A stretch of DNA of 64,000 nt from Sulfitobacter sp. S223 (GTDB lineage: Bacteria; Pseudomonadota; Alphaproteobacteria; Rhodobacterales; Rhodobacteraceae), in the NCBI RefSeq assembly GCF_025143825.1, contig NZ_CP083560.1:2542001-2606000 (forward strand), given 5' to 3'. Shown here in pieces: positions 25,698 through 39,765 of this stretch (its first letter is position 1; the number at the start of each line of letters is the position of its first letter). The position numbers and the translations under genes were made by a program. The notes beneath the pieces were generated by a model that was not told the DNA's origin, searched no databases, and saw only the letters and a list, made by a program, of their open reading frames with translations.

Positions 25698-26306
25698 ATG
25701 AATGCCTGTGATATCAGCAGCGTGAGAAAAGATCTTCGTATCCTTGTCGTTGAAGCTGATGCAGCCAAAGCGAAAAACATAATCGACGCGCTGCTTGAGG
25801 CAGGGTGGACCGATCTGCACGCGATCTCTCAGGTTTCGGGTCTGGAGCAATCCATAGAAGAGCATGCGCCGGATATTGTGCTCATCGACATGGCCAACCC
25901 CGACCGTGATACGCTTGAACATATTGGTGCTGTCTCGAACACCAAATCCCGCGCTGTTGCGATGTTCGTGGACCAGACCGATCCCCATCTGACCCAAGCG
26001 GCCCTTGCCGCGGGTGTCAGCGCCTATGTCGTCGACGGTTTGCAGATGAACCGCATCAAATCGGTGATCGAAACGGCAATCGCGCGGTTCCAGATGATGC
26101 GGCAAATGCGGTCAGAGCTGGATGCCGCTAAACAGGCGCTGGAGGACCGTAAAACCATCGACCGCGCCAAGGGCATTCTGATGCGCCGTCGCGGTCTTTC
26201 CGAGGATGAAGCCTATAAGCTTTTGCGAAAAGCGGCCATGGATCAGGGTCGCAAGGTGATCGACGTGGCGCAAGCACTTGTCACGGCCTCGGACTTGCTC
26301 GGATGA
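25698..26306 (+). CDS. nasT: Nitrate-responsive ANTAR antiterminator NasT
   Basis: The 202 residues comprise an N-terminal receiver-like domain (LRILVVEADAAKAKNIIDAL near residues 13-32, DIVLIDM with the acceptor-position aspartate) and a C-terminal ANTAR RNA-binding domain. The latter contains ALEDRKTIDRAKGILMRRRGLSEDEAY-type sequence from about residue 148. NasT binds paired hexaloop hairpins and prevents termination in the leader of nitrate-assimilation operons. It is held inactive by NasS, encoded by the overlapping next gene. Such a leader is visible at 27570-27656. Confidence 0.93.
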   Translation: MNACDISSVRKDLRILVVEADAAKAKNIIDALLEAGWTDLHAISQVSGLEQSIEEHAPDIVLIDMANPDRDTLEHIGAVSNTKSRAVAMFVDQTDPHLTQAALAAGVSAYVVDGLQMNRIKSVIETAIARFQMMRQMRSELDAAKQALEDRKTIDRAKGILMRRRGLSEDEAYKLLRKAAMDQGRKVIDVAQALVTASDLLG

Positions 26307-27451
26307 CGCGTACTGTCCTAAACTGTGGCTATGTTCCTTTGGTTGACAGCGCTCCGCTGATCATCGCGCACGAGCTGGGTTTCGCCGCCGAAGAAGGTTT
26401 GGAGCTTAATCTTATGCGCCAGCCGTCGTGGTCCGCCTTGCGCGATATGTTGGGCCTTGGGCATCTGGACGCGGCGCAGATGCTGTCACCGATGCCGGTG
26501 GCGATGACGCTGGGACTGGGCGGACTTTCTGCGCAGATCGATACGCTTATGGGCCTGTCTGCAAATGGAACGGTATTTGGCGTCACTACACGGCTTGCGC
26601 AGCACCTTGAGCAGATTACCTTTGGCGACCCTCATGCGCTGCTGGCAGGCCTTGAGGCGTGGGGGCCAAGACCCTTGCGTGTCGGTGTCCCGTTTCCCTT
26701 CTCGATGCATCGCTTGTTGCTGTCCTATTGGACAGCGGCCGCTCCGGGCCTTGCGGTAGAGAGCGTGACCGTACCGCCCCCGCGCATGGCCGAAGCTGTA
26801 GCACAAGGGCACGTTGATGCCTTCTGGGTGGGTGAGCCTTGGGGCAGCGATATTGTGGCGCGCGGAGTGGGTGATATCGTCATGGCGGGATCTCACGTCT
26901 GGGGGTTTGCGCCCGAAAAAGTTCTGGCCGCGCGTCATGATTGGACAGTGGACAACCCCGAAACCACCCAAAAACTGATGCGCGCGGTCTATCAGGCGTC
27001 CCGCTGGCTTGATCTGGAAGAGAACAAACCGTTGGCCGTCGAAATGCTGGGCCGGAGCGAGCATCTGAACCTTTCGCATGAAGTCATCGAACCTGCGGTC
27101 ACAGGCATGCTCACACCAACCGCTGGCGCTGCCCCCATACGGGTGGAGCATTTCTTGATGTTTCATGATCATGCAGCGTCGTTTCCGTGGCGCAGTCAGG
27201 CCGCGTGGATCGCCAAGCAGCTCGGCGCAGACTCTGACGGAACCGCCGCAGCCATGTCTTGTTGCCGGACTGATCTCTACCGCAAATACCTCGGCCCGAT
27301 CGGCGCTGACCTGCCCGGCGCATCGGAAAAAGTCGAAGGCGCGATGAATGAAAAGACCGCTGTTGCCTCATCGCGGGGGCAGATGATTCTTGCGCCGGAT
27401 GCTTTTTTTGACGGCAGGACGTTCGATTTCTCATCAAATGCGGCTGAATAA
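26303..27451 (+). CDS. nasS: Nitrate sensor NasS
   Basis: This 382-residue protein is homologous to the nitrate-binding protein NrtA but starts MTRTVLNCGYVPLVDSAPLIIA with no signal peptide. That makes it the cytoplasmic sensor NasS rather than a transporter subunit. Conserved features include VGVPFPFSMHRLLLSYW, VDAFWVGEPWGSDIV and SRWLDLEENK. It binds nitrate or nitrite and then releases NasT. The ATG overlaps the nasT stop by four bases, as expected for a complex-forming pair. Confidence 0.92.
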   Translation: MTRTVLNCGYVPLVDSAPLIIAHELGFAAEEGLELNLMRQPSWSALRDMLGLGHLDAAQMLSPMPVAMTLGLGGLSAQIDTLMGLSANGTVFGVTTRLAQHLEQITFGDPHALLAGLEAWGPRPLRVGVPFPFSMHRLLLSYWTAAAPGLAVESVTVPPPRMAEAVAQGHVDAFWVGEPWGSDIVARGVGDIVMAGSHVWGFAPEKVLAARHDWTVDNPETTQKLMRAVYQASRWLDLEENKPLAVEMLGRSEHLNLSHEVIEPAVTGMLTPTAGAAPIRVEHFLMFHDHAASFPWRSQAAWIAKQLGADSDGTAAAMSCCRTDLYRKYLGPIGADLPGASEKVEGAMNEKTAVASSRGQMILAPDAFFDGRTFDFSSNAAE

Positions 27452-27569
27452 ATAGGCACTCTGCGAGGCGGCTTGTATTTTTGTGCCGCACTGCAGAAAA
27501 AACATTGCGAACCGTGTCAGGGCGGTTCAACGTACTACGAAGACCACAGGCGCTGCCGCCTAACACCTC
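27452..27569 (+). other. Upstream part of the nitrate-operon leader
   Basis: This non-coding segment after nasS holds further small inverted repeats: GCGGC/GCCGC at 27468-27489, GAACCG/CGGTTC at 27509-27528, and AGGCG-CTGC-CGCCT at 27548-27561. They suggest that the leader folds along its whole length. An operon promoter may also lie here. A reading frame runs through to nrtA, but it has no start signal and no family-like sequence. Confidence 0.45.
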
Positions 27570-27656
27570 CCGCCAATGATGGTGGATTCCTCTCAAGAGC
27601 AAAGCCGCTCGTAAGACGCATGGATTTCTCCGTGCCACTTACGTGTGGCTTTTTTT
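27570..27656 (+). promoter_or_regulatory. ANTAR-type antitermination leader of the nitrate operon
   Basis: Hairpin P1 is CCGCC-AATGAT-GGTGG (27570-27585, one G-U pair). Hairpin P2 is GAGC-AAAGCC-GCTC (27597-27610). Both have six-base loops with A at position 1 and G at position 4, the ANTAR-recognition pattern. P2 overlaps the left arm of a terminator: AGCCGCTCGTAAG (27603-27615) pairs with CTTACGTGTGGCT (27638-27650) except at two positions, followed by seven T. Holding P1/P2 would break the terminator and allow nrtA transcription. The leader lies between nasS and nrtA. Confidence 0.82.
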
Positions 27657-27697
27657 CGTTTTACGGGCCCCGCCCGTCCCATCACAGGACACATAAG

Positions 27698-29068
27698 ATG
27701 ATTGCAAAACTCCCTATCGCCCTTGCCGCTACCAGCCTTCTGGCCACAGCGGCCTATGCTGAAATGCTTGATCTTGAGAAAGACGAGCTGACCTTTGGCT
27801 TTATCAAACTCACCGACATGGCCCCGCTGGCCGTGGCCTATGAGAATGGATATTTCGAGGACGAAGGTTTATTTGTGACCCTTGAGGCACAAGCCAACTG
27901 GAAAGTGCTGCTGGACGGTGTGATCGACGGACAGCTGGACGGCGCGCATATGCTGGCAGGGCAGCCGTTGGCCGCCACAATCGGCTATGGCACCAAGGCG
28001 CATATTATCACGCCTTTCTCGATGGATTTGAACGGCAACGCGATCACTGTGTCCAATGAGATATGGGAGCAGATGAAGCCCAATGTTCCGCTTATGGACG
28101 ATGGCCGCCCCCAACACCCGATCAGCGCCGAGGCACTGGCCCCAGTGGTCGAAGCCTATGATGAAGAGGGTAAGCCGTTTAACATGGGCATGGTTTTCCC
28201 TGTATCCACGCACAACTATGAAATCCGCTATTGGCTGGCCGCTGGCGGTCTGAAGCCAGGGTACTATTCCCCTGAGGATGTAACAGGCACGATTGGCGCG
28301 GATGTTTTTCTGTCGGTGACACCTCCACCGCAGATGCCCGCCACAATGGAAGCCGGCACGATTTACGGCTACGCCGTGGGGGAGCCATGGAACCAGCAAG
28401 CGGTGTTCAAAGGCATCGGCGTACCGGTCATTACCGACTACGACATGTGGAAAAACAACCCCGAAAAGGTCTTTGGCATCACCAAGGAATTCGCGGATGA
28501 GAACCCCAACACGACAATCGCTCTGACCAAGGCGCTGATCCGTGCAGCGATCTGGCTGGACGAGAATGATAATGCCAACCGCGAGGAAGCGGTCGAAATG
28601 CTGTCGCGCTCGGAGTACGTCGGTGCGGATGCCGAGGTCATCGCCAATTCGATGACAGGTTTCTTTGAATTCGAGAAGGGCGACCGCCGCCCTGCCCCTG
28701 ATTTCAACGTCTTCTTCCGCTATAACGCGACTTATCCATTCTATTCTGACGCCGTGTGGTACCTCACGCAGATGCGCCGCTGGGGCCAGATCGCAGAGCC
28801 GAAGTCTGACGAGTGGTTCATCGAGACAGCCAAGGAAGTCTACCGCCCCGACATCTATCTTAAAGCCGCCCGGATGCTGGTAGACGAAGATATGGCAAAT
28901 GCGGCTGACTTCCCCTTTGACAGCGACGGGTTCAAAGCGCCGACGCCTGCGGCGGATATCATTGATGGCATCGGCTATAACGGGCGCACGCCCAACGCCT
29001 ATCTTGAAAGCCTGCCCATCGGCCTGAAGGGCGAACAGATGATCGTCGACAACGAAATTCAGGGCTAA
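27698..29068 (+). CDS. nrtA: Nitrate ABC transporter substrate-binding protein
   Basis: This 456-residue periplasmic receptor has the signal [21 protein letters not shown] and then [19 protein letters not shown], the NrtA/NasF start. Typical NrtA segments are [35 protein letters not shown] and [14 protein letters not shown]. The frame continues upstream to 27473, but the ATG at 27698 gives the signal peptide and follows the leader terminator. It delivers nitrate to NrtB/NrtCD. Confidence 0.93.
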
Positions 29069-29234: not shown

Positions 29235-30317
29235 ATGACCGCCATTGATCCAACGCAGATCCAGACCGCCGAACGCGAGGCCAAGCGCGCCCGCCTGTTC
29301 ACCCGCATCAACAAGGCCGACTCCTGGTTTCAGGTCTTGGGTCTTGCATGGCTCACCCCGATCCTGAAAGCCGCCGCTGGCGACAACCCGCGCGCGCAGG
29401 TGGGCGAAATCTGGCGTCTACTGGGCGTGCCGCTCTTGGCGATTGCGATTTTCTTGCTCGCATGGGGCATACTGGCACCGAAAGTGCAAACATCCCTTGG
29501 TGCTGTGCCCGGGCCTGCGCAAGTCTGGGAACAGGCAAAAGCCCTCAATGCCGATGCCATTCGGGAGCGAGAGAAAGAAGCCGCATTCTATGAGCGTCAA
29601 GATGCCCGCAACGCCAAGCTTGTCGCAGACGGCCAAGAGGATCGCGTGCGCGAGCGGGCCTATACAGGGCGCCCGACCTATTACGCGCAAATCTGGACCT
29701 CAATCAAAACCGTCTTCTTCGGGTTTCTGATTGCTGCCATCATCGCCATTCCGCTGGGCATCGCGGCGGGCCTGTCCAAGACGGCCAATGCAGCCCTGAA
29801 CCCGCTGATCCAGATTTTCAAACCCGTCTCGCCGCTGGCGTGGCTGCCGATTGTGACCATGATCGTCTCGGCGCTTTATGCCAGTAATGACGGCATGTTT
29901 TCCAAGAGCTTTCTGATCTCGGCGATCACAGTGACTCTCTGCTCGCTCTGGCCCACGCTGATCAACACCGCATTGGGTGTGGCCAGCATCGACAAAGATC
30001 TGTTGAGCGTGTCCCGCGTCCTGAAGATGAACACATGGACCAAGATCACCAAGCTGGTGCTGCCCTCGGCGCTGCCGCTGATCTTCACCGGCCTGCGGCT
30101 GAGCCTTGGGGTCGGTTGGATGGTGCTGATCGCCGCCGAGATGCTGGCGCAGAACCCCGGTCTGGGAAAATTCGTCTGGGATGAGTTCCAGAACGGCTCA
30201 TCCCAGTCCTTGGCCAAGATCATGGTGGCGGTGTTCACCATCGGGATCATCGGTTTCCTGTTGGACCGTGTGATGTACGCACTCCAGTCCATGTTTACCT
30301 TCTCGGCCAATCGGTAA
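29235..30317 (+). CDS. nrtB: Nitrate ABC transporter permease
   Basis: This 360-residue permease of the NrtB/TauC type has a cytoplasmic N-terminal extension of about 50 residues, a first membrane segment near residues 60-80, and a linker of charged residues. A cluster of membrane helices follows from about residue 155, with the motif FKPVSPLAWLPIVTMIV and the EAA-like loop TKITKLVLPSALPLIFTGLRLSLG. It forms the membrane channel for nitrate/nitrite uptake. Confidence 0.92.
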   Translation: MTAIDPTQIQTAEREAKRARLFTRINKADSWFQVLGLAWLTPILKAAAGDNPRAQVGEIWRLLGVPLLAIAIFLLAWGILAPKVQTSLGAVPGPAQVWEQAKALNADAIREREKEAAFYERQDARNAKLVADGQEDRVRERAYTGRPTYYAQIWTSIKTVFFGFLIAAIIAIPLGIAAGLSKTANAALNPLIQIFKPVSPLAWLPIVTMIVSALYASNDGMFSKSFLISAITVTLCSLWPTLINTALGVASIDKDLLSVSRVLKMNTWTKITKLVLPSALPLIFTGLRLSLGVGWMVLIAAEMLAQNPGLGKFVWDEFQNGSSQSLAKIMVAVFTIGIIGFLLDRVMYALQSMFTFSANR

Positions 30318-30349
30318 GCGGCGCTCGGGCGACGCAGAAAGGAATAACG

Positions 30350-32047
30350 ATGAGCATTCTGAGCATCAAAAACGTGAACAAGGGCTTTGGCGTAGGCACC
30401 GAGCGGGCCGAGGTTCTCAAAGGCATCAATCTTGAGGTGAAGGAAGGCGAATTCCTTGCCATCCTCGGCTTCTCCGGCACGGGTAAATCCACGCTGATGA
30501 ACTTGATTGCAGGGCTTGAGATGCCCGACAGCGGAACGCTGACCTATCGCGGCGCGCCCATCACCGAACCGGGACCAGAGCGGGGGCTGATCTTCCAGTC
30601 CTATTCGCTCATGCCGTGGCTGACAGTGGGCGGCAATGTGGGACTGGCCGTGGATGCGGTTTTCCCCAAGCTCAGCAAGGCGGAGCGGGAGACGAAGATC
30701 AATCACTACGTCTCGATGGTGGGTCTGCCGCATGCAATCGGGCGACGTCCAGCGGAATTGTCGGGGGGCATGCGCCAACGGGTTGCTGTGGCGCGCGCAC
30801 TGGCGATGAACCCCGAGATGCTGCTGCTGGACGAGCCGCTCTCGGCGCTGGATGCGTTGACACGGGCCAATCTGGCGGATGAAATTCTGGAGATTTGGGA
30901 GAGCGACAAAAAGACCTGCATCCTGATCACCAATGATGTGGATGAGGCGATCCTCCTTGCAGACCGTATTGTGCCGCTCAACCCTGATGGCACTTTGGCC
31001 GATCCGATTGAGGTAGGTATCCCCCGCCCCCGCGACCGGATGGCCATGAACAACGACGAGACGTTCAAGGCGCTGCGCGCAAGTGTGACCAAATATCTGA
31101 TGGATGTGGGGATCGAGGCCAAGGTCGAAGAGAGCAAGACCTTGCCCGATGTCACGCCAATTCATGCGGTGCCAAAGGTTGTAGCAGACGCGCAGAAAAG
31201 CCCGATTGAGGAACGCTATCTGACGTTCTCGCAGTTGCACAAAGTCTACCCGACGCCCAAAGGGCCGCTGACAGTGGTTGAGGATTTTGACCTCAAGGTC
31301 AACAAGGGCGAGTTTATCTCGCTGATCGGGCATTCGGGCTGTGGCAAATCGACGGTGCTGACCATGGCGGCAGGCCTAAACCCGATCTCGAAGGGCGCGA
31401 TCAAACTGGATGGATGGAACGTGGAGGGGGCGGACCCCGAGCGTGCCGTTGTCTTCCAGTCACCCAACCTGTTCCCGTGGCTGAGCGCCAAGGAGAATGT
31501 GGCGATCGGGGTGGATAAAGTTTACCCCAAAGCATCCCAAGCCGAGCGCCAGGATGTGGTGGAATACTACCTTGAGCGTGTCGGTCTGGCCGACAGTATG
31601 GACAAGGGGGCGGCGTCGCTTTCCAACGGGATGAAGCAGCGCGTTGGCATCGCACGGGCTTTTGCGCTGTCGCCTAAACTGCTCTTGCTGGACGAGCCAT
31701 TTGGCATGCTCGACAGCCTGACGCGATGGGAACTGCAAGAAGTGCTGATGGAGGTCTGGTCGCGCACCAAGGTGACGGCCGTTTGTGTAACCCATGACGT
31801 TGATGAGGCGATCCTTTTGGCCGACCGCGTTGTGATGATGACCAACGGCCCACAGGCCACAATTGGCAAGATCACGGATGTGAAGCTGCCCCGTCCACGC
31901 ACCCGCAAGGCGCTGCTGGAGCATCCCGATTACTATGCTTACCGGCAGGAGGTTCTTGATTTCCTTGAGGAATACGAACACGGCAACACGTCGAAATCCG
32001 AGAAGGCCGGGAAACCAGTCCCCAAAAAACCCATCGCGGCGGAGTAA
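30350..32047 (+). CDS. nrtC: Nitrate ABC transporter ATPase with two fused nucleotide-binding domains
   Basis: The 565 residues hold two complete ABC domains. The first has Walker A GFSGTGKST near residues 40-48, signature LSGGMRQRVAVARAL and Walker B LLLDEPLSALD. The second has Walker A GHSGCGKST near residue 326, a variant signature LSNGMKQRVGIARAF and LLLDEPFGMLDSLTR. In cyanobacteria these are separate proteins, NrtC and NrtD, and NrtC carries an NrtA-like domain that is absent here. A fused pair would make the transporter ATPase from a single chain. Confidence 0.92.
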   Translation: MSILSIKNVNKGFGVGTERAEVLKGINLEVKEGEFLAILGFSGTGKSTLMNLIAGLEMPDSGTLTYRGAPITEPGPERGLIFQSYSLMPWLTVGGNVGLAVDAVFPKLSKAERETKINHYVSMVGLPHAIGRRPAELSGGMRQRVAVARALAMNPEMLLLDEPLSALDALTRANLADEILEIWESDKKTCILITNDVDEAILLADRIVPLNPDGTLADPIEVGIPRPRDRMAMNNDETFKALRASVTKYLMDVGIEAKVEESKTLPDVTPIHAVPKVVADAQKSPIEERYLTFSQLHKVYPTPKGPLTVVEDFDLKVNKGEFISLIGHSGCGKSTVLTMAAGLNPISKGAIKLDGWNVEGADPERAVVFQSPNLFPWLSAKENVAIGVDKVYPKASQAERQDVVEYYLERVGLADSMDKGAASLSNGMKQRVGIARAFALSPKLLLLDEPFGMLDSLTRWELQEVLMEVWSRTKVTAVCVTHDVDEAILLADRVVMMTNGPQATIGKITDVKLPRPRTRKALLEHPDYYAYRQEVLDFLEEYEHGNTSKSEKAGKPVPKKPIAAE

Positions 32048-32050
32048 ATT

Positions 32051-34489
32051 ATGACACAAAAACTGATTATTATCGGGGCGGGAATGGCCACGGGCCGTGC
32101 GCTAGAAACCTTGCTGGAAACAGCACCAAACGCCTATGAGGTCACGCTCTTCAACGCCGAGCCGCGCGGCAACTACAACCGCATCATGCTCAGCCCCGTT
32201 CTGGCGGGTGACAAGACTTATGCCGAGATCGAGACGCATACGCCTGCATGGTACGCCGAGAATGGCGTGACCTGCCGCTTTGGAGAGAAGATCGCCAGCA
32301 TCGACCGCACGGCCAGGACCGTCACAGCCGAAAATGGCGATGTGCTGGCCTATGACAAGCTGTTGTTCGGCACTGGATCGAACCCGTTCATGATCCCTCT
32401 GCCCGGTCACGATCTGGAAGGCGTCATCGCCTACCGCGATCTGGAAGATACCGAGCGAATGATGGACCTTGGGCCTGATCACAAATGCGTGGTGATCGGT
32501 GGCGGTTTGTTGGGTTTGGAGGCCGCCGCGGGCATGGCGGCGCGCGGTGTCGACGTTACAGTGGTTCACATCATGGGCCACCTGATGGAGCGTCAGCTGG
32601 ACGAGGCTGCTGGCTATCTGCTGCGCAATGCTTTGGTGGCCAAGGGCATTACCGTCAAATGCTCCGCCAACTCCAAGGAGATACTGGGCAAGGACGGCCA
32701 TGTGCGCGCGCTGTTGCTGGATGATGGGACAGAGCTGCCCTGCGATCTGCTGGTGATGGCGGTCGGCATCCGGCCCAATGTGAAACTGGCGCAAGATGCA
32801 GGGCTGGCCGTAGGGCGCGGTATTCACGTGGACGACCAGATGGTGAGCTCCGACCCCGACATCCTCGCCGTGGGCGAATGTGTAGAGCATGACGGCGCGA
32901 TCTTTGGCCTTGTTGCCCCGCTTTATGATCAGGCGCGGGTGGCTGCAATGACCCTGCTGGAGGAAGAGGCGCAGTTTGTTCAAAAAGAGCTGTCGACCAA
33001 GCTTAAGGTGACAGGATGCGATCTGTTTTCAGCAGGTGATTTTGCGGAGAGTGAAGGGCGCGAGGACATCGTGTTCCGCGATCCTGCACGCGGCGTTTAC
33101 CGGCGTCTGGTGATCGAGAATAACGTGATTATCGGGGCGGTAATGTACGGCGATACGGCCGACAGCAATTGGTTCTTTGGCCTTATTCGCGACAAGACCG
33201 ACATCGTAGAGATGCGCGACACGCTGATCTTTGGTCCTGCCTATCAGGGGGGCCCCCTCGCGGACCCGCTCTCAGCCGTTGCAGCCTTACCGCGTGACGC
33301 GGAAATCTGTGGCTGTAACGGCATTTGCAAAGGCACGATTGAGGATGCCATCGCAGGCGGGGCGACCGACCTTGCGGCGGTGAAAGCCACGACAAAGGCT
33401 TCGGCCTCCTGCGGGACCTGCACCGGATTGGTCGAGCAGGTTCTGGCGGTCACATTGGGCGATGATTTCGTGCTGCCCGCCACCGCCAGTATCTGCGCCT
33501 GCACTGACATGACCCATGAGGATGTGCGCCGCATGATCAAATCACAGCGGCTGACCTCGATGCCTGCCGTCTGGCAGGAATGCGGGTGGAAAACCTCGTG
33601 CGGATGCCATGTGTGCCGCCCTGCCCTGAACTTCTATCTGCTGGCAGACTGGCCGCTGGACTATACCGATGATCCGCAGTCGCGTTTCATCAACGAGCGC
33701 AAGCACGCCAACATTCAGAAAGACGGCACGTTTAGCGTGGTACCGCGCATGTGGGGCGGGATCACCACACCAGACGAACTGCGCGCGATCGCGGATGCGG
33801 CGGATAAATACATGGTGCCTACGGTCAAGGTGACGGGCGGTCAGCGGATCGACCTTCTGGGCGTCAAAGGCGAGGACCTGCCCGCGATCTGGAAGGATCT
33901 CAACGATGCGGGCATGGTGTCGGGCTATGCCTACTCCAAGGGGCTGCGCACGGTCAAAACCTGCGTTGGCACGGATCATTGCCGCTTTGGCACGCAGGAT
34001 TCTACTGGCCTTGGCATCAAGCTGGAAAAGACGCTGCACGGCTCTTGGACACCCCATAAGCTCAAGCTTGGCGTGTCGGGATGCCCGCGCAACTGTGCCG
34101 AGGCGACCTGCAAAGATATCGGTGTAATCTGTGTCGACAGCGGATTTCAAATCAGCATCGGCGGTGCCGCTGGCATGGACGTCAAAGAGACCGAATTGCT
34201 GGTACAGGTGGCCTCTGAGGCAGAGGCGATAGACGTGATCAAGGCTATGACGCAGCTCTACCGCGAGAACGCCAAATACCTTGACCGCATTTACAAATGG
34301 ATGGCCAAGGTGGGTCTGAACTGGATCGAGACGCGTGTCGTCACCGATCTGGCAGAACGCGCCGCCTTGGTGGAACGGTTCGAGTTGAGCCAGAGTATTT
34401 ACCGCCATGATCCTTGGGCGGCCCATGTCAATGACAAGGCCGAAAGCTACCAGCCCCTTGCGCAGCTTGGCTTGGAGGCAGCGGAATGA
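32051..34489 (+). CDS. nirB: Assimilatory nitrite reductase, large subunit NirB
   Basis: This 812-residue NAD(P)H- and siroheme-dependent enzyme reduces nitrite to ammonium. The order is an FAD motif GAGMATGRALETLL, an NAD motif VVIGGGLLGLEAAAG near residues 148-162, then two BFD-type [2Fe-2S] regions (CGCNGICKGTIEDAI with CGTCTGLVEQVL, and CACTDMTHEDV with CGCHVCRP). A C-terminal sulfite/nitrite reductase half carries the siroheme/4Fe-4S cysteines in CVGTDHCRFG and SGCPRNCAEATC. Three bases separate it from nrtC, and nirD overlaps its end. Confidence 0.95.
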   Translation: MTQKLIIIGAGMATGRALETLLETAPNAYEVTLFNAEPRGNYNRIMLSPVLAGDKTYAEIETHTPAWYAENGVTCRFGEKIASIDRTARTVTAENGDVLAYDKLLFGTGSNPFMIPLPGHDLEGVIAYRDLEDTERMMDLGPDHKCVVIGGGLLGLEAAAGMAARGVDVTVVHIMGHLMERQLDEAAGYLLRNALVAKGITVKCSANSKEILGKDGHVRALLLDDGTELPCDLLVMAVGIRPNVKLAQDAGLAVGRGIHVDDQMVSSDPDILAVGECVEHDGAIFGLVAPLYDQARVAAMTLLEEEAQFVQKELSTKLKVTGCDLFSAGDFAESEGREDIVFRDPARGVYRRLVIENNVIIGAVMYGDTADSNWFFGLIRDKTDIVEMRDTLIFGPAYQGGPLADPLSAVAALPRDAEICGCNGICKGTIEDAIAGGATDLAAVKATTKASASCGTCTGLVEQVLAVTLGDDFVLPATASICACTDMTHEDVRRMIKSQRLTSMPAVWQECGWKTSCGCHVCRPALNFYLLADWPLDYTDDPQSRFINERKHANIQKDGTFSVVPRMWGGITTPDELRAIADAADKYMVPTVKVTGGQRIDLLGVKGEDLPAIWKDLNDAGMVSGYAYSKGLRTVKTCVGTDHCRFGTQDSTGLGIKLEKTLHGSWTPHKLKLGVSGCPRNCAEATCKDIGVICVDSGFQISIGGAAGMDVKETELLVQVASEAEAIDVIKAMTQLYRENAKYLDRIYKWMAKVGLNWIETRVVTDLAERAALVERFELSQSIYRHDPWAAHVNDKAESYQPLAQLGLEAAE

Positions 34490-34821
34490 GCGACTGGATT
34501 GATATTGCGGCCCTTGACGACATCCCCCAGCGTGGAGCGCGTTTGGTCAAAACGGCTCAGGGCTGTGTGGCCGTGTTCCGCACCGCCACCGATGCGGTCT
34601 ATGCCCTCGACAACAGGTGCCCACACAAAGGCGGGCCTTTGGCCGAAGGGATCGTGCATGGCGCCTCCGTCACCTGCCCGCTGCACAATTGGGTGTTCTC
34701 GCTTGAAACGGGTCAGGCCCAAGGACTGGATGAGGGTCAGGTGGCCACCTATCCCGCGCGCGTCATAGACGGGCGGATCGAGTTGGAGGCGGCCTTCCTC
34801 GCGGCGCGCACCGCCGCATGA
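34486..34821 (+). CDS. nirD: Nitrite reductase small subunit NirD
   Basis: This 111-residue Rieske-fold protein has CPHKGGPLAEGIV and CPLHNWVFSLETG. It therefore keeps all four Rieske-type ligand positions (C-x-H and C-x2-H) rather than having lost them. It partners NirB and overlaps both nirB and nasA by ATGA, so stoichiometric translation is likely. Confidence 0.93.
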   Translation: MSDWIDIAALDDIPQRGARLVKTAQGCVAVFRTATDAVYALDNRCPHKGGPLAEGIVHGASVTCPLHNWVFSLETGQAQGLDEGQVATYPARVIDGRIELEAAFLAARTAA

Positions 34822-37397
34822 GCCTGACGCGGACAACCTGCCCCTATTGCGGCGTTGGATGTGGCGTTTTGGCAGGGCCCGACGGCACGATCAAAGGCGA
34901 TCCCGATCATCCGGCAAACTTTGGCCGGCTGTGCTCGAAGGGGGCCGCACTGGGCGAGACAATTGATCTGGAGGGACGATTGCTCGCACCCCAGATTGGA
35001 GGCATGGAAGTGGACTGGGATAGCGCATTGGAGCGCGTCGCACAGGCGTTCTCTGACGCGGTCCGCGATCACGGGCCTGACAGCGTCGCGTTCTATGCCT
35101 CCGGCCAGCTGCTGACCGAAGATTATTACGTGGCCAACAAGCTGATGAAAGGGTTCATCGGCTCGGCCAATATCGACACGAACTCACGGCTGTGCATGGC
35201 ATCGTCGGTGGCGGGGCATAAGCGCGCTTTCGGGACGGATACTGTGCCCGGCACCTATGCCGATCTGGAGCAAGCGGATCTCATTGTTTTGGTTGGCTCA
35301 AACCTCGCGTGGTGTCATCCGGTGCTCTACCAGCGCATCGTAGCAGCGAAAGAGGCGCGGCCAAACATGCGCGTGGTCAACATTGATCCACGTCGCACGG
35401 CAACTTGTGATCTGGCGGATGCACATTTGCGCGTGGCACCTGACGGCGATGTGGCGCTGTTCAACGGGTTGCTGGCCTATCTGGCCGACCATGACCACCT
35501 CGATATGGACTATGTCACCGCGCATGTGGGCGGATGCAGTGCCGCACTGGCGCAGGCGCGTGCCACAGATGCTTTGCAATCCGGCATCAGCGCCGAAGAT
35601 CTGGGCCGTTTTTACAAACTTTGGGCGCGGACCAAAAAGGTCGTGACCGTCTATTCGCAAGGCGTAAATCAATCGGCCAGCGGCACCGACAAAGTGGGCG
35701 CGATCCTGAATTGTCATCTGGCCACGGGTCGCATTGGCAAGGTCGGCGCGGGGCCGTTTTCTGTCACGGGCCAGCCCAACGCCATGGGTGGGCGCGAAGT
35801 GGGCGGGCTGGCGAATATGCTGGCCAATCATCTCGACATCGAGAATTCCGAACACCGCGACACGGTGCAAACCTTTTGGAACAGCCCCACCATCTGTGAC
35901 CAAGCGGGTCTCAAGGCCGTTGATCTGTTCGAAGCCTGTGCGCGGGGCAAGATCAAGGCGCTTTGGGTGATGTCCACCAATCCTGCCGTCTCGATGCCCG
36001 ATGCGGGATATGTGGCGAAGGCCATAGCAAACGTGCCATTTGTCGCCGTCTCTGACATCATGGCGCGCACGGATACCGGTGATCTGGCCGATGTGCTGCT
36101 CCCTGCCGCAGGCTGGGGCGAGAAGGACGGCACGGTCACCAATTCCGAACGCCGCATTTCGCGCCAGCGGGCGTTTTTGCCAACGCCCGGTCAGGCACGC
36201 CCTGATTGGCGCATTATCAGTGATGTAGCAACGACCATGGGCTTTGGTGAGGCGTTCGACTATGATACCTCCGCCGATGTCTTTGCCGAATATATCGCAC
36301 TGGATGCGGCCGCGCGCCCCTTTGACCGCGATCTGGACCTGAGCATCTTTGCCGATGTTGATTACGCCAAACTGATCCCCACGCAATGGCCGCGCACCGA
36401 TGCAAGGTTTTTCGCGGACGGCAAATTCTACCACACGGATGGCAAGGCGCGGATGCTACCGATCACGGCGCCGACGTTGGAGCACAAAGGCCTGACGCTC
36501 AATACAGGGCGGAACCGTGACCAGTGGCATACGATGACGCGCACGGGGAAATCCCCGAAACTGGGCGCACATCTGGCGGAGCCTTATCTGGAAATCCATC
36601 CAGACGATGCGGCGGATGTCGGTACATCCCACGGCGATCTGATGGCGGTCGAAACGGCTCAAGGCAGCGCCATTTTGCGCAGCCTTGTCACCGACCGTGT
36701 TGCACGCGGACAGCTTTTTGCACCGATGCACTGGACCCGCCAGACCGCGCGCGGTGCTGTGGTGAATACGTTGATGTCCTCGGTCACGGATCCTTTTTCC
36801 GGCCAGCCCGCGCTCAAACGTGGCAGGGGCTTGAGCGTCTCTCCCTTTGTGGCCAAGTGGTATGGTTTCATGGCTTGCGCGCAGAAGCCGCGGGCCACGA
36901 CGCCCTATGCCGCGATTGCGCGCACGGCGACGGGGTGGCAGGTCGAGATGGCAGCACTTGAATCGCCAACGGACTGGATCGAGGCCGCCCGCAGCATCGC
37001 GCAACTGCCAAAGGCGGAGGCGGCAGTCTATGAGGGCGGCCCAGGAGGCATCCTGCGCGTGGCTCTGAGCACTCAAGGCATGATCCAAGCGCTATTCTTT
37101 GTCGCAAATAGCGCCGTGGCGCTCTCGCGCAGCGCGGCCATTGCGCATATCGGGACAGACACGCCGCCGTTGGAGGCATTGGCGGGGCGCATGGGCAAGA
37201 ACCAGCCCGACCCCGGCGCAATCGTGTGTGCCTGTCTGAACGTGGGTCAGAACACGCTGGTCAATGCAATTGGTGCGGGGGCATTTTCCGTGGCGGCCTT
37301 GGGTGAGGTGACCTGCGCGGGGACCAACTGCGGCTCTTGCAAGCCTGAGCTTGCACGGCTGGTGGCGCAGCACAGCCTGCCGGTGGCGGCAGAATGA
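34818..37397 (+). CDS. nasA: Assimilatory nitrate reductase catalytic subunit
   Basis: This 859-residue molybdopterin enzyme has an N-terminal [4Fe-4S] motif CPYCGVGCGV-(x)n-RLCSKG within residues 8-45. A Mo-bisMGD core includes NIDTNSRLCMASSVAGHKRAFG with the expected cysteine ligand region. The C-terminus carries a BFD-like [2Fe-2S] domain, CACLNVGQNTLVNAI to CAGTNCGSCKPELARL. This places an extra electron-entry cluster on the catalytic chain. No separate NasC-type reductase gene is present, so the electron donor is probably encoded elsewhere or is a ferredoxin or NirB. Confidence 0.94.
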   Translation: MSLTRTTCPYCGVGCGVLAGPDGTIKGDPDHPANFGRLCSKGAALGETIDLEGRLLAPQIGGMEVDWDSALERVAQAFSDAVRDHGPDSVAFYASGQLLTEDYYVANKLMKGFIGSANIDTNSRLCMASSVAGHKRAFGTDTVPGTYADLEQADLIVLVGSNLAWCHPVLYQRIVAAKEARPNMRVVNIDPRRTATCDLADAHLRVAPDGDVALFNGLLAYLADHDHLDMDYVTAHVGGCSAALAQARATDALQSGISAEDLGRFYKLWARTKKVVTVYSQGVNQSASGTDKVGAILNCHLATGRIGKVGAGPFSVTGQPNAMGGREVGGLANMLANHLDIENSEHRDTVQTFWNSPTICDQAGLKAVDLFEACARGKIKALWVMSTNPAVSMPDAGYVAKAIANVPFVAVSDIMARTDTGDLADVLLPAAGWGEKDGTVTNSERRISRQRAFLPTPGQARPDWRIISDVATTMGFGEAFDYDTSADVFAEYIALDAAARPFDRDLDLSIFADVDYAKLIPTQWPRTDARFFADGKFYHTDGKARMLPITAPTLEHKGLTLNTGRNRDQWHTMTRTGKSPKLGAHLAEPYLEIHPDDAADVGTSHGDLMAVETAQGSAILRSLVTDRVARGQLFAPMHWTRQTARGAVVNTLMSSVTDPFSGQPALKRGRGLSVSPFVAKWYGFMACAQKPRATTPYAAIARTATGWQVEMAALESPTDWIEAARSIAQLPKAEAAVYEGGPGGILRVALSTQGMIQALFFVANSAVALSRSAAIAHIGTDTPPLEALAGRMGKNQPDPGAIVCACLNVGQNTLVNAIGAGAFSVAALGEVTCAGTNCGSCKPELARLVAQHSLPVAAE

Positions 37398-38329
37398 CCC
37401 TCGCCCCTTTTGTCAGGATCGTCGCACAGGGCAAGGGGCGCGCCCGCGCCATGACCTTGGATGAGGCGCAAGATGCGATGAGCGTGATCCTGCAAGGAAA
37501 GGCTGCGCCTGAGGCGGTGGGCGCGCTGCTGATGGTGCTGCGTTTGCGCGGGGAAGAGCCACAGGAGATCGCCGGTTTCACTGCCGCCCTGCGCGCGCAT
37601 ACGAAGGGGCAACTGCCGGCTGCTGATCTGGATTGGCCCAGCTACGCCGCAGGGCGTAGTCGGGGCGCGCCGCTTTATCTGCTGGCGGCCCGGCTGGTGG
37701 CGCAGACGGGTGTTCGCATATCGATGCACGGCCACAATGCCTATCAGAACATGGCAATACAGCCGGATGATATCCGTGCACTGGCAGGACCTCAGGTGCG
37801 GTATGACCCGCTGGCCGAGTTGTGCCCAGAGGCCTTTTCCCTGTTGGATTTGCGCAGAGACCTGGGCTTGCGGTCATGCATTAACACGGTGTTGCGCATG
37901 TGGAATCCGGCGCAGGCCCCCGCCACGGTGCAGGGCGTGTTCCATCCCTCCTATCGCAGCCTGCAGGCGCAGGCTGCCGAGATATTGGGCCAGAAAACCC
38001 TCAGCATCATCAAGGGCGGCGGCGGCGAGTTCGAGCGCCATCCCTCCAAGGACATTATCTGTTTTGGCCTGCGCAAAGGTCAGCACATCCAGGAAAAAGC
38101 CCCCGCGATCCTGTCCCAGACCCGCCGCTTGCATGAAGAGAGCACGAGGATCGACCCGAGGGCGCTTTGGCAAGGGACGCTGCGCGATCCGTTTGCCGAA
38201 GCCACGGTGACCGGCACCGCCGCATTGGCGCTCTGGACGCTTGATCCGAACTTAACCCTCAACGCCGCGCAGGGCCACGCGAATGCACTTTGGCTGGACC
38301 GCACCATGGATGAAGGAATTTACGCATGA
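37394..38329 (+). CDS. TrpD2/YbiB-like anthranilate phosphoribosyltransferase-family protein
   Basis: This 311-residue protein has the fold of anthranilate phosphoribosyltransferase but not its standard active-site set. An N-terminal helical domain contains LTLDEAQDAM and GALLMVLRLRGE, then GHNAYQN appears where the PRPP-binding GTGGD motif normally sits, and later KGGGGEFERHPSKD. It corresponds to the group annotated as glycosyl transferase family protein or TrpD2, whose members are reported to bind nucleic acid. It overlaps nasA and cysG by ATGA, tying it to nitrate assimilation. Its role there is not known to me. Confidence 0.8.
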   Translation: MTLAPFVRIVAQGKGRARAMTLDEAQDAMSVILQGKAAPEAVGALLMVLRLRGEEPQEIAGFTAALRAHTKGQLPAADLDWPSYAAGRSRGAPLYLLAARLVAQTGVRISMHGHNAYQNMAIQPDDIRALAGPQVRYDPLAELCPEAFSLLDLRRDLGLRSCINTVLRMWNPAQAPATVQGVFHPSYRSLQAQAAEILGQKTLSIIKGGGGEFERHPSKDIICFGLRKGQHIQEKAPAILSQTRRLHEESTRIDPRALWQGTLRDPFAEATVTGTAALALWTLDPNLTLNAAQGHANALWLDRTMDEGIYA

Positions 38330-39765
38330 AGACTTTTCCGATGTTCCTGCAGATGGCGGGCCGCCGTGTTGTGATTGTGGGCGGCGGCGAACAAGCGGCG
38401 CAAAAGACGCGACTGATGCTCAAAACCGAAGCCACGATCACCGTGATCAGCGATGCGCTGGATGATGAGTTGGCAGATCTTGCTGCCGTTGGCCGGATCA
38501 CCCAACATAGCGGTGCGGTAATTGCGCAAGACTTCGGGGATAGCGCATTGGTGTTTGTCGCCACAGGCTGCCCCGGTGCGGATGGTGCGCTGCATGCGCT
38601 GGCCAAAACGGCAGGCGCGACGGTGAACGTAGTGGACCAGCCCGCGCTATGTGATGTGATCACGCCTTCGATCGTGGACCGCGATCCGGTGGTTGTTGCG
38701 ATCGGAACAGAAGGCACAGCGCCCGTTCTGGCCCGCCAGATCAAAACGCAAGTCGAGCAGATGCTGGAGCCCGAACTGGGCGCATTGGCGTCCCTTGCGG
38801 GACGGTTGCGCGCCAGTGCGGCACAGCACCTTGGCCCGCGCGCACGACGCGATTTGTGGCGGTGGGTATTTGGTGATGCACCCCGCCGTGCTCATGCGCG
38901 CGGGGCGCAGCGGGAAACGGCACATATGATAAAACATGCCATTGCCACAGGTGATTTCGGACAAGAGCCCGGCGGGAGTGTTGCCTTGGTCGGGGCTGGG
39001 CCAGGGGCGAAAGACCTCATCACCCTACGCGGTGTGCAGCGCCTGCAAGAGGCCGATGTGATCTACTATGATCGTTTGGTGGACCCCGACATTCTGGAAC
39101 TGGCGCGGCGGGATGCAGAGCGGATCTATGTGGGCAAACGGCCCGGTTGCCACAGCTGGCCACAGGAGAAAATCACGCAAACAATCGTTGCCGCTGCCAA
39201 GGGCGGAGCGCGGGTTGTGCGCCTCAAATGCGGCGATCCGGGTATTTTTGCCCGTGGGCTTGAAGAAATAGAGGCCCTGCGTGCGGCAGATATCCCCGTT
39301 GAAATCGTACCCGGTGTTACTGCGGCGAGCGGTGTGGCGGCAGCCAGTGGCCAGACCCTGACCGAGCGGGAAGAGATCGACACGTTAGTGCTCACCACGG
39401 GCCATGTCTCGGAGGGATGTGCGGTGCCAGAGGTCCTGCGCACCCTCACGCCGGGAACGTGCGTTGCCCTTTACATGGCCGTTCGCGCGGCGCCGCAGAT
39501 CAGCGCATATTTGGCCACACGTCACGCGCCCCAAGCCATTGACGTCACGATCGTCGCCCATGCGCAAACGGATGCCCAGATTGTCACGAGCTGCGATATC
39601 GCGTCGCTTCCTGCAACGCTTTTGGCGCATGGCATCACGGATACCGCGACTCTCCTACTCAAATTACGCAGGAACGTTCGACATGATCAGCGGAAGCAAG
39701 ATACCGGAGGTCATCACCCTTCGTCATGTGGCAGTGCTGTCATTCCATTGCACGTGGGAGGGTGA
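38326..39765 (+). CDS. cysG: Siroheme synthase CysG (trifunctional)
   Basis: The 479 residues combine a precorrin-2 dehydrogenase/ferrochelatase half with an NAD motif VVIVGGGEQAAQKTRLML near residues 14-31 and a C-terminal uroporphyrinogen-III methyltransferase half from about residue 215. The latter carries VALVGAGPGAKDLITLRG, EADVIYYDRLVDP and VVRLKCGDPGIFARG. It makes the siroheme required by NirB, which explains its place at the end of the nitrate operon. The last 25 residues are unlike the family and may be a neutral extension. Confidence 0.93.
   Translation: MKTFPMFLQMAGRRVVIVGGGEQAAQKTRLMLKTEATITVISDALDDELADLAAVGRITQHSGAVIAQDFGDSALVFVATGCPGADGALHALAKTAGATVNVVDQPALCDVITPSIVDRDPVVVAIGTEGTAPVLARQIKTQVEQMLEPELGALASLAGRLRASAAQHLGPRARRDLWRWVFGDAPRRAHARGAQRETAHMIKHAIATGDFGQEPGGSVALVGAGPGAKDLITLRGVQRLQEADVIYYDRLVDPDILELARRDAERIYVGKRPGCHSWPQEKITQTIVAAAKGGARVVRLKCGDPGIFARGLEEIEALRAADIPVEIVPGVTAASGVAAASGQTLTEREEIDTLVLTTGHVSEGCAVPEVLRTLTPGTCVALYMAVRAAPQISAYLATRHAPQAIDVTIVAHAQTDAQIVTSCDIASLPATLLAHGITDTATLLLKLRRNVRHDQRKQDTGGHHPSSCGSAVIPLHVGG

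Follow-up and report, generated by a model that had tools for sequence, protein, structure and literature searches.

A probable NasT-controlled, nitrate-responsive antitermination leader with three hexaloop hairpins upstream of nrtA in Sulfitobacter sp. S223 and related Rhodobacteraceae

The 246-nt region between nasS and nrtA in Sulfitobacter sp. S223 is very probably a nitrate-responsive antitermination leader controlled by the ANTAR protein NasT, in an alphaproteobacterial form with three hexaloop hairpins, which we term P0, P1 and P2. The basic switch is an ordinary further member of the established NasS-NasT class; the three-hairpin architecture, judged by its conservation and covariation in relatives, appears to be the new part as far as we checked. 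The window, i.e. the whole stretch of DNA analysed here, spans 64,000 nucleotides of a 4.03 Mb Rhodobacteraceae genome; among its named relatives, Sulfitobacter and Roseobacter are the closest.

Gene neighbourhood and anatomy of the leader

The genes at this locus occur in the order nasT, nasS, leader, nrtA, nrtB, nrtCD-type ATPase, nirB, assimilatory nitrate reductase, PRK09071-type glycosyl transferase and cysG. The relevant features, in positions of the window, are:

25698..26306, plus strand: nasT, a receiver-like domain and ANTAR RNA-binding protein (PF03861, 83.1 bits, cut-off 27.3)
26303..27451, plus strand: nasS, an NrtA-like nitrate/nitrite sensor and partner of NasT (PF13379, 206 bits)
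27452..27697, plus strand: nasS-nrtA leader, 246 nt (MFE -96.9, z -5.84)
27548..27561, plus strand: hairpin P0, AGGC-GCTGCC-GCCT, the third hexaloop hairpin, 8 nt 5' of P1, with loop A1 changed to G in the window genome and G4 kept
27570..27585, plus strand: hairpin P1, CCGCC-AATGAT-GGTGG, with one G-U pair
27597..27610, plus strand: hairpin P2, GAGC-AAAGCC-GCTC, the putative antiterminator hairpin, with four pairs and bases in common with the terminator left arm
27604..27649, plus strand: intrinsic terminator hairpin (27604-27615/27638-27649 plus an apical helix 27618-27623/27630-27635)
27650..27656, plus strand: T7 tract, read from the sequence
27698..29068, plus strand: nrtA, the predicted first gene under leader control (PF13379, 314.9 bits)
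29235..39765, plus strand: downstream genes nrtB, nrtCD-type ATPase, nirB, assimilatory nitrate reductase, PRK09071-type glycosyl transferase and cysG (profile matches)

The nasT and nasS genes overlap by 4 bases. While the ANTAR domain of NasT is recovered far above its cut-off, the receiver domain scores slightly under it (PF00072, 29.1 bits against 30.2), and the conserved receiver Lys is replaced by Asp; such a receiver would be compatible with control through NasS rather than through phosphorylation. NasT can be aligned to EutV (6wsh), Rv1626 (1s8n), NasR (4akk) and AmiR (1qo0), with the EutV alignment extending over the full length (E 2.2e-17). Arg142, Lys143, Tyr164 and Met172 of EutV (numbering from PMC8934654) are identical in NasT and Lys147 is replaced by Arg; the Tyr and Met with which EutV contacts RNA are hence kept in this sequence alignment. 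The top PDB matches of NasS are the binding domains of nitrate and bicarbonate ABC transporters. An ANTAR protein with the RNA-contact residues and an NrtA-like NasS are thus encoded side by side, which, going by these sequences, places the pair in the NasS-NasT class. In the downstream genes, the ntrCD, NirB, PRK09071 and CysG models matched above the NCBIfam cut-offs, with the ntrB and nitrate reductase models falling under theirs. The glycosyl transferase gene between the nitrate reductase and cysG (37394-38329; TrpD2/YbiB-like, NF006564, 292 bits, cut-off 257) has no obvious role in a nitrate operon.

The original prediction had described, from the DNA alone, an ANTAR-type leader upstream of nrtA with two hairpins, the second overlapping a terminator. 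Its class assignment is borne out by the adjacent nasTS genes, the 83.1-bit ANTAR domain and about 100 leaders of like build. The two hairpins are exactly as it gave them: the loops AATGAT and AAAGCC both have A at the first and G at the fourth position (A1 and G4 hereafter), as in ANTAR dual-hexaloop leaders, P1 requires one G-U pair and P2 is closed by four pairs. They are separated by a linker of 11 nt, within the 5-12 nt of the eut leaders, although relatives vary more (e.g. 15 nt in leader L037). The overlap was likewise correctly noted: the loop and right arm of P2 (27601-27610) form part of the left arm of the terminator, which is followed by the seven T. The terminator is real, but the '13-base' stem ascribed to it is an approximate figure, its main helix comprising eleven pairs (one of them G-U) and one U-U mismatch, with three further A-U pairs possible into the T tract.

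When the 246-nt leader was dinucleotide-shuffled 20,000 times, a strict ANNGNN pair arose in 32 of the shuffles, and such a pair with an overlapping terminator in none. The segment 27566-27662 has a folding energy of -39.5 kcal/mol (z -5.6), a value reached by 0 of 200 shuffles. No Rfam family matched anywhere in the window at the gathering score, and a consensus scan detected no sigma-70-like promoter. A sigma-54 promoter in the leader was considered and rejected, given that GG-N10-GC is absent from 58 of 101 leaders against 61.0 of 101 in mononucleotide shuffles, with similar scores. By eye, a sigma-54-like TGGCAC-N5-TGC is visible 5' of the hexaloop hairpins in three leaders from outside Rhodobacteraceae (L062, L064 and L122), with no excess in the 101. 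Also seen 5' of P0, at 27508-27529, is the palindrome GAACCG-N10-CGGTTC, which has six pairs and, on the minus strand, a T-rich tail.

The folding of the complete leader that the original prediction had called for gave the low free energy listed above. We also folded growing transcripts from 27452 at successive 3' ends, as an equilibrium calculation rather than a kinetic one. P1 was present with a pair probability of at least 0.97 at every 3' end. Between the 3' ends 27624 and 27642, P2 had a mean pair probability of 0.65-0.86 at most positions but of 0.26 at 27633; the value then fell to 0.53, 0.19 and 0.00 at 27645, 27648 and 27651 as the terminator climbed to 1.00. P2 and the intrinsic terminator are therefore mutually exclusive in folding, having 27601-27610 in common. 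P2 alone amounts to -5.4 kcal/mol, and forcing P1 and P2 in 27540-27657 gives -41.8 kcal/mol against -46.1 for the free fold, a cost of 4.3 kcal/mol. P2 is expected to exist only briefly unless held, because the terminator displaces it as the 3' end grows and forcing the two hairpins gives the less stable fold. This is consistent with the earlier suggestion that P2 may need NasT to be stabilised.

Conservation and covariation of a third hairpin

To collect relatives, NasS was searched against 198 genomes of the family (83 matched at E <= 1e-30) and GTDB contigs (39 loci), and further stretches were added. This yielded 103 full leaders, from the nasS stop to nrtA, of which all but L024 and L109 had a P2 anchor; among the resulting 101 are the leader of the window and three from Pseudomonadales. 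Two alignments were made: alignment A1 holds all 37 Roseobacter-group leaders with a NasS at least 60% identical, and alignment A2 holds 44 of the other 64, hand-picked for clean alignment with 20 left out. The zone counts and spacing figures below refer to all 101. Leaders were selected by a P2 pattern that fixes G4, so the G4 of P2 is not free evidence; P0 and P1 played no part in the selection.

A common architecture is seen 5' of nrtA in about 100 of these leaders. Loops of the ANNGNN type occur in 202 of the 455 hexaloop hairpins counted in 99 of the leaders, against a mean of 16.8 of 287 over 30 shuffle rounds. The loop of P2 has A1 and G4 in 37/37 sequences of alignment A1, and A1 in 43/44 and G4 in 44/44 of alignment A2. 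P1 is looser: in alignment A1 its loop begins with A in 26/37 and G in 11/37, with G4 in 37/37, and in the P1 zone a 4-pair hexaloop hairpin is present in 56 of the 101 leaders, 43 of these with G4 and 32 with A1. In the leaders of alignment A2, which come from non-Roseobacter Rhodobacteraceae, the P1 loop is often of 7 nt, CCC-ANNGNN-N-GGG, i.e. a hexaloop with one extra 3' base.

The description of the leader as dual-hexaloop holds for P1 and P2, both of which are canonical, but falls short, as the family carries three hairpins and P0 had gone unlisted. The homologues of P0 mostly have canonical ANNGNN loops and in most relatives lie about 50 nt 5' of the P2 loop. A1 is found in 35/37 and 44/44 sequences of alignments A1 and A2, respectively, and G4 in 37/37 and 44/44; over the 81 aligned leaders (A1 79/81, G4 81/81) this strictness equals that of P2 and exceeds that of P1. 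Taking from the P0 zone the hexaloop hairpin with the longest stem, whatever its loop letters, gave ANNGNN in 69 of 80 leaders, with 21 of the 101 having no such hairpin. At least two RNNGNN hairpins (6-7-nt loops, stem of at least 4) lie within 75 nt 5' of P2 in 55/101 leaders, against a shuffled mean of 0.8. Even for strict ANNGNN hexaloops in that span, two are present in 19/101 (shuffled 0.0) and at least one in 80/101 (shuffled 4.2).

Covariation is strongest in P0, a hairpin absent from the original prediction. In alignment A2 its stem has changes on both sides at 5 of 7 pairs, and the covariation score of P0 and P2 taken together is 0.504, against a shuffled mean of 0.168 and at most 0.120 for slid versions. 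For the two hairpins to which a covariation check had originally been confined, the outcome is divided. P1 does covary: in alignment A1 the frequency of pairing at its pairs 2, 4 and 5 exceeds that in 1000, 1000 and 999 of 1000 shuffles, respectively, with no significant covariation at pairs 3, 6 and 7. P2 is nearly invariant in relatives and so unable to show covariation, which neither supports nor refutes it and is as expected if hairpin and terminator both constrain P2. The terminator itself displays pair changes on both sides, e.g. in ten sequences at columns 97-130 of alignment A1 and thirteen at columns 107-160 of alignment A2. On these comparisons P0 is the best-supported hairpin among relatives.

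A congener search had matches in 11 of 62 genomes including the window, and two short matches were left out of the loop reading. Of the eight congeners with a readable leader, the sister species L217 has the same P0 loop as the window, GCTGCC, and the other seven (L218-L224) have A1. In the window P0 lacks A1, and the folding program pairs G1 with C6 across its loop (as it does A1 with U6 in P1), so this hairpin may not bind NasT. In the EutV structure, as the text of PMC8934654 has it, Tyr164 stacks with G4 and the uncontacted A1 may hold the loop open. On this account P0 is perhaps weakened in the window, yet not plainly dead; in the P1 of relatives G1 is common. The leaders with G1 in P0 (L003, L044 and L217) all keep A1 in P1, three cases being too few to count. 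With P0 conserved and covarying in relatives, and its loop without A1 in the window, the leader departs from the exactly two hairpins of the ANTAR dual-hexaloop class. This argues for a variant of the ANTAR leader and would not contradict its working principle.

Distribution and comparison with known ANTAR systems

At E <= 0.01, model R1, made of 37 leaders, recovered 19 of 29 sources outside its training set, including a Pseudomonadales leader (E 1.7e-7). In the window genome its sole match is the nasS-nrtA leader (E 1.9e-17; opposite strand 0.045, next place 0.44), and it found no other NasT target there. At large it matched in 2 of 289 genomes of the class and 7 of 398 of the phylum; given these few matches R1 was judged too close to the Roseobacter group, and NasT loci were surveyed instead. 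Among 56 such loci from the class and phylum, 22 gave a terminator-overlapping hexaloop and 34 gave no P2; these are raw counts without a shuffle baseline, and many of the 34 blanks perhaps stem from loci ending near the leader. Nine, the window included, have two more hairpins 5', and five of the nine are from outside the family (L148, L159, L164, L168 and L194), with four of these five strict in all three loops. A strict triple also occurs on a Sphingomonas plasmid (L123), and a Novosphingobium leader (L126) has a triple with G1 in the first hairpin; those of Sinorhizobium (L122) and Methylocella (L124) are dual in appearance, the second hairpin being read by eye. In 25 mostly gammaproteobacterial stretches, L208 is the only strict triple, L062 is a triple whose middle hairpin has C1, and one upstream strict hairpin is present in L198, L199, L204 and L212. 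Gammaproteobacterial leaders are mostly dual where readable, and most of the remaining stretches gave nothing usable.

The window genome encodes a second ANTAR gene (38.1 bits), behind a binding-protein-like gene (L119, G000:C1:1683500-1684300; L120, G000:C1:1684150-1687400), an arrangement that presumably resembles amiC-amiR. Directly 5' of the first gene of that locus is a hairpin with seven T, with an ANNGNN loop, ACAGTT, inside the terminator hairpin; no second strict hairpin was found close to it.

The closest parallel is the NasS-NasT/nasA leader of Paracoccus denitrificans, which shares the nasT-nasS order, a leader before the first structural gene, an ANTAR antiterminator and leader hairpins, as described in the text of PMC5424462 and PMC3795266. 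There NasT binds the nasA leader RNA by EMSA and nitrate frees NasT from NasS (text of PMC3795266), and mutating leader hairpin HI abolishes growth on nitrate (text of PMC5424462). The leader of P. denitrificans HAMBI_2443 (L121) has hexaloop hairpins AACGGC, AATGAT and GACGAT, followed by a hairpin that resembles a terminator but lacks a T4 tract, so that the terminator may work differently there. Two leader structures, HI and HII, are named in the text of PMC5424462, and judged by distance HI could, with some uncertainty, lie at or beside the AATGAT hairpin.

The EutV leaders of Enterococcus faecalis (eutP, eutG, eutS and eutA) are similar in their A1/G4 hexaloops, in a second hairpin that overlaps an intrinsic terminator and in a linker of 5-12 nt (text of PMC3369931). 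They differ in having two hairpins against three in the NasT leader family, and EutV is phosphorylated by EutW, in contrast to NasT with its Lys-less receiver-like domain and its partner NasS. NasR and the Klebsiella nasF leader, as far as the sources consulted describe them, likewise provide nitrate-responsive ANTAR antitermination of a nas operon; unlike NasS-NasT, NasR is a one-component NIT-ANTAR sensor, and the nasF leader is a dual hairpin. A precedent for a third hexaloop exists in the EutX sRNA, where an extra single hexaloop lies next to the dual motif; however, in the account of PMC8934654 this RNA acts in trans by sequestering EutV and is not a three-hairpin leader ahead of a terminator. 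ANTAR RNAs are described as dual stem-loops in the text of PMC3369931, PMC8934654, PMC5424462, PMC3795266, PMC6759348, PMC3369936 and PMC8164766, and we recognised no published three-hexaloop ANTAR leader in the mostly open-access running text searched.

Proposed switch and alternative readings

We propose that in the absence of nitrate NasS would retain NasT, and the nascent RNA would adopt the 27604-27649 terminator with its T7 tract, stopping transcription before nrtA. With nitrate, NasT would be freed from NasS and could capture the hexaloop hairpins as they emerge from the polymerase; P2 would be kept folded, 27601-27610 would be denied to the terminator, and the polymerase would continue into the nrtA-cysG genes. 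P0, P1 and P2 follow one another at intervals of about 27 nt in the nearest group, and P0 and P1 could act as loading sites that hand NasT to P2. In EutV, according to the text of PMC8934654, a single ANTAR dimer engages a single hexaloop at a time, a recruitment hairpin and then an antitermination hairpin, and three hexaloops in series would suit such a stepwise hand-over along the RNA. In the window genome, with the A1 of P0 lost and its G4 kept, P1 would be the only fully canonical loading hairpin remaining.

Going further, and with slightly more doubt than belief, we suggest that alphaproteobacterial NasT leaders form a distinct three-hexaloop ANTAR class, in which NasT would move from P0 to P1 to P2 as each emerges, doubling the loading window before the terminator; the change of A1 to G in the P0 of a small clade would then be a natural reversion towards a relay of two hairpins.

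A serious possibility, though one we lean against, is that these are plain dual-hexaloop ANTAR leaders in which P1 and P2 act and P0 is a remnant or has another role, its conservation being unrelated to NasT. In the window genome A1 and G4 are indeed found together only in P1 and P2, the linker between them falls in the eut range (text of PMC3369931), and Pseudomonas-like and some rhizobial leaders have two hairpins. We disfavour it because the near-absolute G4 and A1 of P0 (81/81 and 79/81), along with the strongest covariation in the leader, are hard to explain without an ANTAR ligand.

It is unlikely, in our view, that all three hairpins are occupied jointly by a NasT oligomer or three dimers, with avidity taking the place of hand-over. 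In PMC3795266 free Paracoccus NasT ran at about 130 kDa, which the text calls 'broadly consistent with a hexamer', and the P0-P1 and P1-P2 spacings are nearly equal (26.6 and 26.6 nt) in 22 of the 37 Roseobacter-group leaders. Against this, the spacings are 28.1 and 21.6 nt in the other group (17 of 64 leaders), hence not rigid, and in EutV one dimer was described per hexaloop (PMC8934654).

That the loop motifs are fortuitous and the site is one of ordinary attenuation, or of plain termination separating two transcription units, is hardly credible: a strong terminator would by itself be enough to insulate nasTS from nrtA, and neither a sigma-70-like promoter nor a sigma-54-like excess was seen, but this reading runs against the 0 of 20,000 shuffles, the excess of ANNGNN loops (202/455 against 16.8/287) and the adjacent ANTAR gene.

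Under the preferred reading of a NasT-controlled leader with three hexaloop hairpins, a search in which ANTAR RNAs are defined by a dual motif would leave the third hairpin unrecorded. As to why ANTAR leaders need several hairpins, the EutV structure, in the text of PMC8934654, suggests a move from recruitment to antitermination. The strict P0 and P2, the looser P1 and the single species in which the A1 of P0 has been lost offer natural variants for separating hand-over from joint binding.
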